From a virus, in IMG/VR virus record IMGVR_UViG_3300028610_000341, positions 1 to 47,060 of that record: 47,060 nt of DNA, one strand, 5' to 3'. A model generated the notes under the pieces. That model was not told where the DNA came from, searched no databases, and saw only the letters and a list, made by a program, of their open reading frames with translations. Made by a program: the position numbers and the translations under genes. Positions 30,394-47,060 of this stretch are shown piece after piece (position 1 is the first letter of the stretch; each line of letters opens with the position of its first letter).

Positions 30394-30418
30394 CGCCGGG
30401 GGGATCGAACCCCCGGCG
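30394..30418 (-). repeat. tRNA T-arm-like hairpin before the polymerase gene
   Basis: Minus-strand RNA: CGCCGGGGG, loop TTCGATC, CCCCCGGCG. This is 9 perfect base pairs closed by G-C around a canonical T-loop. It starts 7 nt after the stop of the DUF2815 gene. A C bulge on the 3' side and two weak pairs could extend it, echoing the early-operon cassettes, but the start-associated sequence is missing. A further hairpin GGGCC-GTCA-GGCCC (30354-30367) lies between it and the likely polymerase start. Confidence 0.7.
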
Positions 30419-39549: not shown

Positions 39550-40812
39550 TCACTTGTAAGGGTCGTATTCGGTGTCGCCCGCCATCACCACAATCTGCGG
39601 CGTGAGCGTATGCAACACGTTGATGGTGTCCGCGTGCACGGCGAGCACGTCCGGCAGTCGTCGGTACGCCTGCGGTGCCTCGTCCAGCCCGCCGCCCCGA
39701 AGGACAACGTCTTCCTTCTGTAGCCAGCCGTACATCATCTGCGGCGAGATAAGGCCGGGCGTCTTGCACTCGCCAGTGCGGCGGTGGTACTTGCCCTTCG
39801 CCTTCGTGCGCGACATGACGCGCCCCGCCCCATGCACCGTGCTCCACATCGTCGCCTCCGCCATGCGCTTCGCGTCCATGCTCTCTGGCACGCGCCCCTC
39901 CACTATCACGGCGTTGTCGCCCATAGAGCCGCCGATGAAACCGCGCTGCCCGGCCCAGGCGGGCGTGGCACCCTTCCGCACGACCACGACGCTCTGCAGA
40001 CTCCAGCCGGTGTTGCCCGGCTCGTCCGTGGGGATGTAATGTGATTCCTTCCACGCGTCGTTGTGGTTGTTCTCGACCGTGTCCACGATCATGACATGGT
40101 CGCCGAGGATGCTGCGCACCTTGTCACACACCCACGCCCGGCCGATGCGTGCGTACTCGGACGCCAGCTCTTTGCCGGTCCAGTAGAAGTCGCCGAGGGG
40201 CGTGTCCAGGTCGAGGAGCGTCTCCGCTTCCTTCACCTTGTCGGTGTACTTCATGCCCTGCGCGAGCGCCATCGTTCCCATCGCGTGCTTCCACCCGAAC
40301 CCGCGCGAACCGAAGTGCACGCCGATCCACACGCAGTCGTCTTCATCGGTGAAGATGTCGACGTAGTGATTGCCGGAACCTATAGTCCCAAGCTGCGCCC
40401 TAGCACGCTGGACATAAGTCCCTCGCTCGATGCTGTTCCGAGAAATTTCATCCCACCAGGGGTGCTCGAAGATGCCCCCGCCATCTGGGAGAACAGCGCA
40501 TCGATTGGATTGCCCAATCCCGAAGCTAATTGTGCTTGCGATCTCATCCGCGATTGCATGTCGGTGCAGGCGCAGGTCGGTGGCGGGGTAGTTGGTTTTG
40601 ACGGCGGTGTTTCCGCAACCGATGTCGAACCCCACCCCCGCGACCGAGACTTGATTAGGATAAGCCGCGACTCCTCCGACTGGCATAACATAGCCAAGGT
40701 GTCCATCGGCCATGATGGAAACTCTAGACGCGCGTGTTGCAACGTCGTCAAGTTGGGCGAGCGTGTTGGCGTCATGGGTGCCGAAGATTGCGATTCGGTT
40801 ATGGTAGTGCAT
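39550..40812 (-). CDS. rtcB: RNA ligase RtcB
   Basis: 420 aa. The signature motifs are VSIMADGHLGYVMPVGGVAA, VAGVGFDIGCG (Asp 63, Cys 66), GSGNHYVD (about 146-152), HFGSRG, GFIGGSMGDN, and VHGAGRVMSRTKAKG with the guanylylated His at about 327. RtcB joins RNA ends bearing 2',3'-cyclic phosphate or 3'-phosphate to 5'-OH ends using GTP and Mn. Phages use it to repair cleaved tRNA or other RNA. It has AGAGGGGGACC before ATG and lies in the same leftward arm as the tRNA-Ser and T-arm hairpins. Confidence 0.9.
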   Translation of the reverse strand: MHYHNRIAIFGTHDANTLAQLDDVATRASRVSIMADGHLGYVMPVGGVAAYPNQVSVAGVGFDIGCGNTAVKTNYPATDLRLHRHAIADEIASTISFGIGQSNRCAVLPDGGGIFEHPWWDEISRNSIERGTYVQRARAQLGTIGSGNHYVDIFTDEDDCVWIGVHFGSRGFGWKHAMGTMALAQGMKYTDKVKEAETLLDLDTPLGDFYWTGKELASEYARIGRAWVCDKVRSILGDHVMIVDTVENNHNDAWKESHYIPTDEPGNTGWSLQSVVVVRKGATPAWAGQRGFIGGSMGDNAVIVEGRVPESMDAKRMAEATMWSTVHGAGRVMSRTKAKGKYHRRTGECKTPGLISPQMMYGWLQKEDVVLRGGGLDEAPQAYRRLPDVLAVHADTINVLHTLTPQIVVMAGDTEYDPYK

Positions 40813-44076: not shown

Positions 44077-44280
44077 TTAACGCTCCAGGTAGTAGGTCCA
44101 GCGTGTGGGGTCGCCTTCGTTCCAGCGCGCCACCAACTCGGCGGCGGTGTTGACGCCGTGCTGCTGCAGGTCGGCGTGCGTGATGGGCTGGGTCGTCTGC
44201 GTGCGTGTCGCGTCGCCGGGCCCGTGGTACACGCGGGTGAAGTACGCGATGGTCGGTGCGTTCCAGTCGTAGCCTTTCAT
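44077..44280 (-). CDS. Small early protein
   Basis: 67 aa. It begins KGYDWNAPTIAYFTRVYHGPGDATRTQT and ends HADLQQHGVNTAAELVARWNEGDPTRWTYYLER. It is preceded by the full start-associated sequence, with its GGAGG 5 nt from ATG 44280. Unknown function. Confidence 0.55.
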   Translation of the reverse strand: MKGYDWNAPTIAYFTRVYHGPGDATRTQTTQPITHADLQQHGVNTAAELVARWNEGDPTRWTYYLER

Positions 44281-44282
44281 GA

Positions 44283-44334
44283 TGCCTCCAGGCGTTGTGG
44301 TGATGCGGCGTAGCGGAATCGAACCGCGCGGCCG
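44283..44334 (-). repeat. Early cassette 5: degenerate T-arm hairpin plus start-associated sequence
   Basis: The invariant 19-nt sequence ACCACAACGCCTGGAGGCA is intact (44301-44283). The hairpin (44334-44306) keeps the T-loop TTCGATT and a 4-bp stem GCGG/CCGC, but a 3x3 internal mismatch interrupts it before an outer CGGC/GCCG stem. It is therefore a worn copy. It lies between the 5-codon frame at 44352-44369 and the gene at 44077-44280. Confidence 0.75.
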
Positions 44335-44351
44335 TGGCCTGCCGCCGGGCG

Positions 44352-44369
44352 TTACCCCGGCGTGTGCAT
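44352..44369 (-). CDS. Five-codon frame with strong ribosome binding site (MHTPG)
   Basis: ATG CAC ACG CCG GGG TAA follows CGCGGGAGGCATC, a relic of the start-associated sequence (AACGC...GGAGGCATC). It lies after the tRNA-Ser and overlaps a GCCGGG/CCCGGC hairpin (44344-44361). It may be a leader peptide, or all that is left of a deleted early gene between two cassettes. Confidence 0.3.
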   Translation of the reverse strand: MHTPG

Positions 44370-44413
44370 GATGCCTCCCGCGTTGAGTGAGAAGGAAGCC
44401 GCGTCATGCGGCA

Positions 44414-44499
44414 AGGAAGCGGTGGGACTCGAACCCACAGGCCACCGCAGTGGCCTACCACCTTAGCAAGGTGGCCCCTGATCCAGCCGGATCGCTTCC
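44414..44499 (-). tRNA. tRNA-Ser(GCU)
   Basis: Folded by eye: acceptor GGAAGCG/CGCTTCC, anticodon stem CCACC/GGTGG with loop TTGCTAA (anticodon GCU), long variable arm GGCCAC/GTGGCC, and T arm GTGGG-TTCGAGT-CCCAC. The long variable arm and anticodon fit serine (AGC/AGU codons). The discriminator is U and no CCA is encoded. It lies 8 bases after an early gene and is followed by relic start-associated sequence, the slot that the T-arm cassettes occupy elsewhere. Confidence 0.9.
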
Positions 44500-44507
44500 G
44501 ACGTGCG

Positions 44508-44915
44508 CTAGCTGTTGCTCTCCGCTTCCATCTTGCGGAGCTTGAGCACGGCCAGCTCCAGCTTCGACACCGTCTCGCGCGCATTGCGCAGGTCGGCGTA
44601 GAGCTGCGACGTGGCGTACGTGCCGAGGAAGTCCTGGCTCGCGTCGCGCAGGTTGCGCACGATGCGACGTTGGCGCACGATGTCGGCGCCAGTGTAGCGT
44701 GGCACCTCGCGCGTGTTGTTCACCAGGAAGTCGCGCAGGTTGACCACCTCGAAGACGCCGTCTTCCTCGATGTCCCGCACGAGTGAGCGGATCGCCTTCG
44801 CGTCGCCCTTCATGCAGAACACGCCGCCGCGGAGCTGGTTGCCTTCGCTCCAGACGGTGTAGTGCGCGACCTTGTTGCCCTTGCTCTCGGTGTGGATGAA
44901 TGCTGATGTTCTCAT
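44508..44915 (-). CDS. Early protein, helical C-terminus
   Basis: 135 aa. Strand-rich start SAFIHTESKGNKVAHYTVWSEGNQLRGGVFCMKGDAKAIRSLVRDIEEDGVFEVV; the second half is helical, RRIVRNLRDASQDFLGTYATSQLYADLRNARETVSKLELAVLKLRKMEAE. Ribosome binding site GGGGG. It is followed by the tRNA-Ser. Unknown function. Confidence 0.55.
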   Translation of the reverse strand: MRTSAFIHTESKGNKVAHYTVWSEGNQLRGGVFCMKGDAKAIRSLVRDIEEDGVFEVVNLRDFLVNNTREVPRYTGADIVRQRRIVRNLRDASQDFLGTYATSQLYADLRNARETVSKLELAVLKLRKMEAESNS

Positions 44916-44927
44916 GGTGCGTTCCCC

Positions 44928-45338
44928 CTAGTTGTCGTTGATGATAATCAGCGCGTCCGGGAACATCCGGATGCGGCTCGTGAGTGCTTCGGGTGTGGTG
45001 TCGCGGGTAAAGATCATCGGCTCGCCGTTACGGTCGAGCACGGGCCGCTTCTGATGGTAGTCGTATGCGATGTAATACGACCACGGCGCGGGCGGGTAGT
45101 CGTTGTGGTCGTCGCGCTCGATGCAGCCAAGCTCGCCGTCGTAGTTCTCCACGATGTAACCGAACGACTCCGCCTTGAGCACGGCCTGTACGAGCGCGTC
45201 GTGCTGGTGGCTGATGCTGCCACTCTTGGCGAACGTCTGTGCGAACACGACACCGTCGCCGTCGTCGTCGTTGCTCACGATGTAACCGTTGACATCTGCG
45301 TCGTACCAAACGAATGCGCTCTCTGCGCGGTCGGTCAT
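44928..45338 (-). CDS. Early protein
   Basis: 136 aa from ATG 45338, directly after a start-associated sequence. FVWYDADVNGYIVSNDDDGDGVVFAQTFAKSGSISHQHDALVQAVLKAESFGYIVENYDGELGCIERDD, then PAPWSYYIAYDYHQKRPVLDRNGEPMIFTRD. It is acidic, aromatic-rich and probably globular. No family recognised; perhaps a host-takeover factor. Confidence 0.55.
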   Translation of the reverse strand: MTDRAESAFVWYDADVNGYIVSNDDDGDGVVFAQTFAKSGSISHQHDALVQAVLKAESFGYIVENYDGELGCIERDDHNDYPPAPWSYYIAYDYHQKRPVLDRNGEPMIFTRDTTPEALTSRIRMFPDALIIINDN

Positions 45339-45341
45339 GAT

Positions 45342-45395
45342 TGCCTCCAGGCGTTGTGGTGAAGCGGGACGTGGGGGATCGAACCCCACGCCCGC
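45342..45395 (-). repeat. Early cassette 4: T-arm hairpin plus start-associated sequence
   Basis: Hairpin 45395-45364 in RNA: GCGGG-CGTGGGG, loop TTCGATC, CCCCACG-T-CCCGC. Seven pairs next to the loop, one bulged T on the 3' side, five outer pairs. It starts 3 nt after a stop codon. The 19-nt start-associated sequence (45360-45342) follows, ending 3 nt before ATG 45338. Confidence 0.85.
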
Positions 45396-45398
45396 GTG

Positions 45399-45785
45399 CT
45401 ACACCTGCGTGACGGGACCGACGAAGTCAAAGTTCTTGACGGCCCGCTTGCGAGCGGCGTTGATGTACTTGTGGATCGCCTTCTGCCGTAGCGCGGCGGT
45501 CGCGAAGTCGCGAGGTGCCTGCCACGCGCCGAAGTTGTCACCGCCGCGCGTCGCGCTGCAGTGGAGCGTGTAGTACGTGCCGGGCGCCGTGTCATAGCCG
45601 AGGAAACCCTTGTCCAGTTCCTCCTGCGGGGTGGGCTCGTACGTCGTCAGCGACGTGGAGTAACGCGCGCCGACCGTGCGGCCCTTGTTGTCAGCGACGC
45701 CGAAGTTGATGTAGAACGTCTCGCTCGGGACGTTGCTCGCGATGCGGCAGTACTCGTACTTGGCCGCGATGTGCGGTGCCTTCAT
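45399..45785 (-). CDS. Early protein
   Basis: 128 aa from ATG 45785, just after a start-associated sequence. It reads KAPHIAAKYEYCRIASNVPSETFYINFGVADNKGRTVGARYSTSLTTYEPTPQEELDKGFLGYDTAPGTYYTLHCSATRGGDNFGAWQ in part, with a basic helical C-terminus AALRQKAIHKYINAARKRAVKNFDFV. No recognised family. Confidence 0.55.
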   Translation of the reverse strand: MKAPHIAAKYEYCRIASNVPSETFYINFGVADNKGRTVGARYSTSLTTYEPTPQEELDKGFLGYDTAPGTYYTLHCSATRGGDNFGAWQAPRDFATAALRQKAIHKYINAARKRAVKNFDFVGPVTQV

Positions 45786-45789
45786 GGTG

Positions 45790-45843
45790 TGCCTCCAGGC
45801 GTTGTGGTGAGGTGGGACGCACGGAATCGAACCGTGCGCCCAC
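45790..45843 (-). repeat. Early cassette 3: T-arm hairpin plus start-associated sequence
   Basis: Hairpin 45843-45812 in RNA: GTGGG-CGCACGG, loop TTCGATT, CCGTGCG-T-CCCAC. Seven pairs, bulged T, five pairs, as in cassette 4 but with a different stem sequence, so base changes are compensated. It starts 3 nt after the stop of the gene at 45847. The start-associated sequence is 45808-45790. Confidence 0.85.
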
Positions 45844-45846
45844 GTG

Positions 45847-46353
45847 CTACCACTCAGTCGTTTCGGGTGCGTCATTGAACGGGCGCGTGTCCAAGAACTT
45901 GATCGCGTCGTTGAGCGTGTCGAAGAACTCCATGTCCGCATCACCTGCGTTGTACTGCTTGAGCACCGTGAATTGATCGTCAACGGTGTCGAGCATTCCC
46001 TTCTCGAACGTCGGCACCTTCACGCACAGGCGGCCACCCAGTATCTCGGTGTGGTCGTCGCCAGCGAACGCGAAGATCTCGATGGCGTCGCCCGTCTCAT
46101 TGGACACGGTGAAGCCATGCATCGCGAGCGCCTTGCCCAGGTCGTCGTTGGTGAAGGGCAGGTCTTCCTTGACCGCGCTCTGCATGGTCAGGTACTCGGG
46201 TGTCGCGTCCATGTTGTCCATGTCGCCGACGATGCCGTCCAGCGCCGCGATGAAGATCGTCGCGTTGCCCAAGCTACTCGGTGCGTCCAGTGCCTTGCGT
46301 GCTTGGTCGGCCAAGTAAATGATGCTGTCGAGTAGTTCGCGTGCGTTTGCCAT
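45847..46353 (-). CDS. Early protein
   Basis: 168 aa from ATG 46353. Start ANARELLDSIIYLADQARKALDAPSSLGNATIFIAALDGIVGDMDNMDATPEYLTMQSAVKEDLPFTNDDLGKALAMHGFTVSN, then FAFAGDDHTEILGGRLCVKVPTF, and an acidic helical C-terminus. Directly follows a start-associated sequence. Unknown function. Confidence 0.55.
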   Translation of the reverse strand: MANARELLDSIIYLADQARKALDAPSSLGNATIFIAALDGIVGDMDNMDATPEYLTMQSAVKEDLPFTNDDLGKALAMHGFTVSNETGDAIEIFAFAGDDHTEILGGRLCVKVPTFEKGMLDTVDDQFTVLKQYNAGDADMEFFDTLNDAIKFLDTRPFNDAPETTEW

Positions 46354-46355
46354 GG

Positions 46356-46408
46356 TGCCTCCAGGCGTTGTGGTGATGCGGCGAGCGCGGAATCGAACCG
46401 CGCTGCCG
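46356..46408 (-). repeat. Early cassette 2: T-arm hairpin plus start-associated sequence
   Basis: Hairpin 46408-46379 in RNA: CGGC-AGCGCGG, loop TTCGATT, CCGCGCT-C-GCCG. Seven pairs, bulged C, four pairs (a terminal A-C mismatch would be the fifth). It is identical to cassette 1 in the hairpin. The start-associated sequence is 46374-46356. Confidence 0.85.
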
Positions 46409-46415
46409 TGTCTGC

Positions 46416-46742
46416 TTACGCTGTGATGTCCCAGTAGCCGGACCCGCCCGCGGGGAAGCAGCGGAACCAACGCTGCGAGCCGTCGTTCCAAACAACCTTC
46501 GTCAGCACACCGTCCAACTCCACGATGGCGTGCAGCACTTTCATTCCGTCCATCCAACCATCACTCTCCATGTACGTGTTGTGCACTCTGTACCCGGCGT
46601 TGGTGAAGGTGGCGAGATCGATGTGCGCCGCCGCGTTGTGCCATTCGATGTACGAGGTGGGGATGGCGGTGAATCCTGCGCGCCACGCCTTCATCGCGTC
46701 CTCGATGGCGGTCGGCAGTGCCAGCTTCTTGCGTGCGGTCAT
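46416..46742 (-). CDS. First early protein
   Basis: 108 aa from ATG 46742, with GGAGG in the start-associated sequence. It is TARKKLALPTAIEDAMKAWRAGFTAIPTSYIEWHNAAAHIDLATFTNAGYRVHNTYMESDGWMDGMKVLHAIVELDGVLTKVVWN in part, rich in Trp and Tyr. First gene of the leftward operon, so probably the earliest made. No family recognised. Confidence 0.55.
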   Translation of the reverse strand: MTARKKLALPTAIEDAMKAWRAGFTAIPTSYIEWHNAAAHIDLATFTNAGYRVHNTYMESDGWMDGMKVLHAIVELDGVLTKVVWNDGSQRWFRCFPAGGSGYWDITA

Positions 46743-46745
46743 GAT

Positions 46746-46798
46746 TGCCTCCAGGCGTTGTGGTAAAGCGGCGAGCGCGGAATCGAACCGCGCTGCCG
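46746..46798 (-). repeat. Early cassette 1: T-arm hairpin plus start-associated sequence in the leader
   Basis: Hairpin 46798-46769 in RNA: CGGC-AGCGCGG, loop TTCGATT, CCGCGCT-C-GCCG, identical to cassette 2. Start-associated sequence 46764-46746, ending 3 nt before ATG 46742. As the first element of the leader it shows that the hairpin is not only an inter-gene spacer. Confidence 0.85.
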
Positions 46799-47060
46799 TT
46801 CGTTCTGTTTCGTTGCGTCACTCCGGCGGTTGTCAGTTCCCCTGCGCGCCCTGCGCTTCGATCCCCGTTGGGTTGCTGCGGTCGTCCGGTGCGGTGTCAG
46901 TGCACGGTCCCGCGAGCGGGGTGGGCCCTGGTCCTCGCCTTCGTTGTGGTTCCCGGTTCTACCGCTCGGGGACTCTGTCTGTCCCCTGTCGTCCGGCGGG
47001 TCTTTGTCGGCAACGGCCCCTGAGGGTCTGCCATCCGGTAGCGGGGTCCGACCCCGCACT
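46799..47060. other. Non-coding leader of the early operon, right part, with terminal repeat
   Basis: No gene is credible here; a frame crossing it on the minus strand lacks a natural start and has random-like composition. It is the 5' side of the leftward early operon. In the last 144 bases (46917-47060, same as 1-144) the minus strand has ACCACAACGAAGGCGAGG, which echoes the start-associated sequence, after a GGGGAC/GTCCCC hairpin. No clear sigma-70 promoter could be picked out. Confidence 0.65.
46917..47060. repeat. Terminal direct repeat, right copy (144 bp)
   Basis: Identical to bases 1-144. Together they show the contig closes on itself or carries terminal redundancy, giving a unique length of about 46,916 bp. 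Confidence 0.9.

Follow-up and report, generated by a model that had tools for sequence, protein, structure and literature searches.

tRNA-like hairpins at gene junctions of viral genomes: candidate punctuation marks of polycistronic messages

In plant mitochondria, RNase P and RNase Z cut the t-elements that lie at mRNA ends (PMC11658184, citing Forner et al. 2007). They are CCA-tailed and are not aminoacylated (PMC11658184). Hairpins composed of an acceptor stem, a T-stem and a T-loop serve as model substrates of bacterial RNase P, and phage RNAs cut by this enzyme include T4 gene 32 mRNA, phage M3 RNA and the C4 RNA of P1 and P7 (PMC11143913). Cluster K mycobacteriophages carry a start-associated sequence (SAS) and an extended SAS (ESAS), the function of which is unknown (PMC3203893). 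Here, we describe five tRNA-like hairpin cassettes in a virus genome, the IMG/VR virus record IMGVR_UViG_3300028610_000341, of which positions 1 to 47,060 were analyzed (47,060 bases; hereafter, the window). Comparison with other viral sequences suggests that these cassettes are, on balance, probably t-element-like punctuation marks that would be cut by host RNase P and perhaps by RNase Z.

Minihelix cassettes of the window

The five cassettes of 52-54 nt (46746-46798, 46356-46408, 45790-45843, 45342-45395 and 44283-44334) are present as an earlier note on this DNA had described them. All are on the minus strand, at the head of a leftward operon. Each joins a hairpin to a start-associated sequence that precedes an open reading frame (ORF).

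46769..46798, minus strand: minihelix 1, 11 bp, loop TTCGATT, 3' bulge C; within the operon leader
46746..46764, minus strand: 19-nt start-associated sequence with Shine-Dalgarno, before ORF 46416-46742
46379..46408, minus strand: minihelix 2, 11 bp, loop TTCGATT, 3' bulge C; stop codon 7 nt upstream
46356..46374, minus strand: 19-nt start-associated sequence, before ORF 45847-46353
45812..45843, minus strand: minihelix 3, 12 bp, loop TTCGATT, 3' bulge T; stop codon 3 nt upstream
45790..45808, minus strand: 19-nt start-associated sequence, before ORF 45399-45785
45364..45395, minus strand: minihelix 4, 12 bp, loop TTCGATC, 3' bulge T; stop codon 3 nt upstream
45342..45360, minus strand: 19-nt start-associated sequence, before ORF 44928-45338
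44306..44334, minus strand: minihelix 5, degenerate (4 bp, 3x3 internal loop, 4 bp), loop TTCGATT
44283..44301, minus strand: 19-nt start-associated sequence, before ORF 44077-44280

Folding confirmed most of the proposed architecture. The 7-nt loop is a canonical T-loop, TTCGATY, closed by G-C. The stem has 11 bp in cassettes 1-2 and 12 bp in cassettes 3-4, and one base is bulged on the 3' side after the seventh pair in four of the five hairpins. D and anticodon arms are absent. The GC-rich hairpins have predicted stabilities of -15.8 to -28.4 kcal/mol, and cassette 5 is weaker than cassettes 1-4. The window has approximately 150 hairpins in which a 7-nt loop caps a stem of 7 bp or more; TTCGATY, found in 5 of them, each on the minus strand, is more common than any other loop. 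Placement shortly after a stop codon holds for cassettes 2-4 (7, 3 and 3 nt) and does not extend to cassette 1, which lies in the leader; upstream of cassette 5 are a tRNA-like sequence and then a 5-codon ORF.

The stem sequences differ between copies and yet remain paired through compensatory changes within the one genome. In the five-copy alignment, 93% of cells are paired, compared with 79% in shuffles, and 6 pairs have changed on both sides, compared with 2.3. The covariation score is 0.45, compared with 0.19 for shuffled alignments, and 0/500 shuffles score as high. The 19-nt sequence ACCACAACGCCTGGAGGCA is exact in 5/5 cassettes, as claimed, with 0.03 matches expected by chance from shuffles; the window has no further site even when 3 mismatches are allowed.

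The earlier note had also pointed to a CCA at a tRNA-like distance. This CCA starts 17 nt past the T-loop (16 nt in cassette 5) and not 13 nt as in tRNA; therefore, it belongs to the start-associated sequence and is not a tRNA 3' end. The distance from stem to CCA exceeds that of a tRNA by 3-4 nt, so the argument that the CCA marks an RNase P substrate fails. The RCCA directly 3' of the acceptor stem that defines a minimal RNase P substrate was not found in the window cassettes. ARAGORN calls no tRNA in the window, the cassettes lack the full set of acceptor, D, anticodon and T-arms, and no cassette matches any family at gathering score in an Rfam scan of the window.

A viral class of acceptor/T-arm elements

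Covarying copies in other phages, which the earlier note had named as support, were found for a wider class of elements and not for the exact cassette. IMG/VR has no match to the exact 19-mer or to the exact hairpin pattern of cassettes 3 and 4, and a 14-mer core of the ribosome binding site sequence gave chance matches only. Model R1 found no cassette in 37 portal-protein relatives, including G027, a syntenic 48-kb relative. Megablast and blastn searches of annotated phages with the window region, and with several contigs that bear elements, returned nothing. Within the collections searched, the exact cassette thus appears private to the lineage of the window. In G027, a 631-aa ORF (L180:8126-10021, plus strand) resembles, by eye, an intein-interrupted metallophosphoesterase.

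A looser pattern, a T-arm followed by CCACAACG, retrieved contigs with acceptor and T-arm structures that are not called by ARAGORN. These belong to an apparently undescribed class of intergenic RNA. Its elements lack an anticodon arm and are built from an acceptor stem of 6-7 bp and a T-arm, in most cases with a GG-containing linker of 10-14 nt. They sit in the gap that separates the stop codon of one gene from the ribosome binding site of the next, with up to approximately 10 per genome, and were found in unrelated viral contigs, four cultured Gordonia phages and one haloarchaeal genome. Text searches of the literature found no earlier description; most subscription journals were outside their coverage, and an earlier description is possible. 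Since neither ARAGORN nor Rfam reports the elements, they could have been overlooked; an Rfam scan of elements from ten other loci gave no element match and one unrelated tRNA hit.

Contigs were selected by T-arm patterns, so the following counts give no estimate of prevalence. At the loci with a T-arm and CCACAACG, 11 non-tRNA T-arms have a 7/7 Watson-Crick acceptor at most 30 nt away, compared with 0.14 expected when the upstream sequence is shuffled; control loci picked by an unrelated 14-mer gave 0/9. The linker CTTGGAGC with a T-arm occurs at 75 sites in IMG/VR viral contigs, 6 of them inside tRNAs, and acceptor pairing reaches 6/7 or 7/7 at 62 of the 69 non-tRNA sites when the best register is chosen. 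A recount used four fixed registers, Watson-Crick pairs only and 47 non-redundant sites, with 5' and 3' strands from different phages re-paired as the null. At least 6/7 pairs formed at 32/47 sites, compared with a mean of 1.9 (maximum 7) for re-paired strands, and 7/7 at 19/47 sites, compared with a mean of 0.7. In an alignment of 34 sequences preselected for pairing of at least 5/7, 92.6% of cells are paired, with 144 compensatory cells (48.6 shuffled) and a covariation of 0.80 (0.17 +/- 0.02 shuffled); shifting the partner by one column abolishes the signal. As for position, 30/38 elements start at -15 to +8 nt from the stop codon of the upstream ORF, often overlapping it, compared with 15% of random positions.

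Individual loci illustrate the range. G038 has eight elements of the form AACCTAG-CTTGGAGCAGGA-AGGGG[TTCGATT]CCCCT-T-CTAGGTT and variants; 7/8 start no more than about 20 nt from a stop codon, and a start codon lies 20-40 nt after 8/8. Each of the four elements of G039 is followed by a related start-associated sequence. The six elements of G042 lie in a noncoding array. This tandem array (L250:19245-19900, L251:150-195) comprises approximately six near-identical mini-tRNAs (GCGAGCC AATGGTTAGA GCAGG..) that are not at gene junctions; the noncoding DNA around them is rich in AACATAAC-like repeats. A tRNA-like element of G041 (L249:17989-18068, minus strand) has one long hairpin in place of its D and anticodon arms, and a start codon follows 27 nt downstream. 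L323, L325, L411 and L444 have two to four elements per contig, with differing linkers and with stem-loops directly after them.

With concatenated elements as the query, four Gordonia phages (Cafasso, Aleemily, ObLaDi and Morgana) matched at E = 0.05 and were then confirmed by structure; the elements of Cafasso, ObLaDi and Morgana were also confirmed by reading the sequence. Cafasso has 11 T-arms genome-wide, of which 10 are intergenic in a genome that is 92.5% coding (7.5% noncoding). Seven of the 11 have a 6/6 Watson-Crick acceptor, and 7/7 of these are intergenic. Most Cafasso elements lie within about 10 nt of the upstream coding sequence end and 34-54 nt before the next start. The leader ACCCAACA is repeated before the ribosome binding site in several of these elements, comparable to ACCACAACG in the window. 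No element is annotated in the stretches of the Gordonia phage records that were read.

When bacterial and archaeal genomes were searched for the CTTGGAGC-type linker and T-arm pattern, 48/80 matches were real tRNAs and few were convincing elements. Because these matches are mostly true tRNAs, the class appears to be mainly viral. Contig L473 of Halorubrum aquaticum carries mini-tRNA elements on the minus strand at 2586 and 7180, one of which is followed by a CCCC..GGGG stem-loop; this contig suggests that archaeal viruses also use such elements.

A second stem-loop with a varying stem sequence lies directly 3' of the element in Cafasso, G038, L411 and L444. Together with the stable GC-rich hairpins at the junctions of stop codon and ribosome binding site, such stem-loops would suit an uncut structural insulator that protects against exonucleases, stops ribosomes from reading over and leaves the ribosome binding site downstream accessible, with the T-loop as nothing more than a compact, stable cap. 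Any stable hairpin would suffice for this purpose, yet the loop is a tRNA T-loop and the stack is approximately 12 bp; moreover, an acceptor helix formed across a GG-containing linker in other viruses is best explained by tRNA mimicry. We consider the insulator unlikely.

The window and the class share the T-loop, the stack of approximately 12 bp, the position and the leader. The T-arm of the window cassettes has the canonical 7-nt T-loop closed by G-C, and the acceptor helix forms a stack of 11-12 bp in 4/5 copies, being broken in cassette 5. Several copies lie between a stop codon and a ribosome binding site, and the 19-mer with this site follows 5/5 copies. We treat the window cassettes as a linker-free variant that may work in the same way, whether or not by common descent. 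A clear second linker-free case was not seen in the 5 Mb of sequence fetched, a set that had not been selected with this form in view.

The link between a T-loop and a start-associated sequence before several genes, an arrangement that recalls the SAS/ESAS of cluster K mycobacteriophages, could also reflect a binding site for a T-arm-reading phage or host protein, such as a phage regulator or an enzyme of the TruB or TrmA type, that controls translation of the next gene. Because the viruses that carry the class are unrelated and differ in their gene sets, a phage-specific regulator is unlikely, which leaves a host T-arm protein as the possible reader. This account is quite improbable in our estimate.

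Candidate tRNA-like punctuation of viral messages

The simplest account of the elements appears to be punctuation of polycistronic viral mRNA. In the transcript, each cassette would fold like the half of a tRNA that holds the acceptor and the T-arm, with approximately 12 bp stacked below a T-loop, and we infer that host tRNA-processing enzymes recognize this fold. RNase P would cut the 5' side of the cassette, just past the stop codon of the preceding gene; on the 3' side, cleavage may be by RNase Z or by trimming nucleases. In some bacteria, RNase Z is discouraged by a CCA that immediately follows the discriminator base, and most elements of the class have no CCA there. The message would thereby be split so that the upstream unit ends shortly past its stop codon and the downstream unit starts just ahead of its own CA-rich leader and ribosome binding site. 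Each gene could then be independently stable and independently translated. The observed parts of this account are the structures, the selection on them, their position and their recurrence in unrelated viruses. The GG linker of the commoner form resembles a D-loop, and the window would represent the linker-free form.

Several features of the window weigh against this reading. The GG linker between the acceptor 5' strand and the T-arm is absent from its hairpins, and covariance model R2 of the class aligns with the window copies in the T-arm half only (positions 18-36 of 42, approximately 20 bits). The acceptor part has a bulge, the stems of cassettes 1-2 have only 11 bp and lack a basal G-C pair, and the CCA is displaced by 3-4 nt; G+1/C+72 and RCCA are known determinants of RNase P. 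A second stem-loop is also not universal in the class, since 13/40 downstream regions have z < -1, compared with 7/39 upstream, a tendency only. The earlier proposal that acceptor-T minihelices serve in processing or insulation nevertheless gains strong comparative support from unrelated viruses, where the elements occupy the same junction of stop codon and ribosome binding site with heavy covariation. It is about an even chance that there is a widespread, undescribed tRNA punctuation system of phages, and probably of haloarchaeal viruses, in which host tRNA enzymes cut mRNA at gene junctions and of which the window is the most reduced, linker-free form.

Separate fates of co-transcribed phage genes are usually ascribed to promoters, terminators, RNase E or RNase III. 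The elements suggest that viruses let the tRNA-cutting enzymes of the cell chop long messages into single-gene pieces. If so, an element that borrows essential tRNA-processing enzymes would be a general, host-independent means to separate gene fates, parallel to tRNA punctuation in organelles, and unannotated intergenic DNA of cultured SEA-PHAGES isolates would become testable RNA sites.

The window has a G+C content of 63%. Its first 144 bases (1-144) are identical to 46917-47060, and because of this terminal direct repeat it is probably a complete circular assembly. The structural genes (terminase, portal of phrog_1216 and capsid) run rightward. The leftward operon encodes a primase, a DNA polymerase, an SSB-like protein, exonucleases, a helicase and an RtcB ligase; the label 'early' for its cassette-bearing genes is inferred from position only. 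The proteins adjoining the cassettes have no confident match in Pfam or PHROG, and a search for relatives of the first early protein, P0001, found none. The RtcB-type RNA ligase lies at 39550-40812 (minus strand), and its nearest phage copies, in Microcystis, Tunturiibacter and Sinorhizobium phages, are approximately 45% identical. An RNA ligase and several tRNA-like copies per genome would fit a decoy or sponge for tRNA-directed host enzymes or defense nucleases. The elements offer no anticodon arm to anticodon nucleases, and a decoy would not need a fixed position between stop codon and ribosome binding site. The decoy role raised in the earlier note is thus not favored for copies tied to gene junctions and lacking an anticodon, and we regard it as very improbable.

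Further tRNA-like sites occur in the window.

44415..44499, minus strand: tRNA-Ser(GCT)-like sequence, 4-nt D-loop, no CCA, stop codon 8 nt upstream
44370..44390, minus strand: degenerate start-associated sequence TCACTCAACGCGGGAGGCATC, after the tRNA-like sequence and before 5-codon ORF 44352-44369
30394..30418, minus strand: extra T-loop hairpin, 9 bp, loop TTCGATC, without the 19-mer

The tRNA-like sequence occupies a gene junction as a cassette does. It scores 40.8 bits against the Rfam tRNA-Sec model, below the cut-off of 47, and is missed by ARAGORN. The extra hairpin lies directly before the DNA polymerase gene, with the SSB-like gene on its other side. A near-complete tRNA at one window junction, linkers resembling D-loop remnants and the mosaic gene content between element copies among the Gordonia phages might indicate relics of former tRNA genes, or sites where gene modules have recombined, with no RNA function. 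Acceptor and T stems that stay paired through compensatory changes would be unexpected without selection, and we give relics hardly any credence. Separately, tRNA-integration sites and homing modules were rejected on the covariation.

Comparison with described systems

The SAS of cluster K mycobacteriophages resembles the 19-mer of the window in being repeated, containing a Shine-Dalgarno sequence and preceding non-structural genes, often with an inverted repeat upstream. However, its consensus, GGGATAGGAGCCC, differs from the 19-mer, which cannot be classed as SAS or ESAS, and the inverted repeats of the ESAS are sequence-conserved 17-mers that are not reported as T-loop or acceptor-T structures. 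The T4 gene 32, M3 and P1/P7 C4 RNAs are single cases and do not form a repeated intergenic element between early genes. The model RNase P hairpins share with the window a single hairpin of acceptor stem, T-stem and T-loop; they are synthetic, with RCCA directly after the stem, whereas the window copies have a 3' bulge and a CCA 3-4 nt further on. Plant mitochondrial t-elements, like the viral elements, are tRNA-like sequences at mRNA ends that are not functional tRNAs. They are mostly degenerate, of tRNA length and organellar, whereas the viral elements consist of acceptor and T-arm only, with many per genome. Cleavage by RNase P and RNase Z defines mRNA ends in the case of the t-elements and is proposed for the viral elements.

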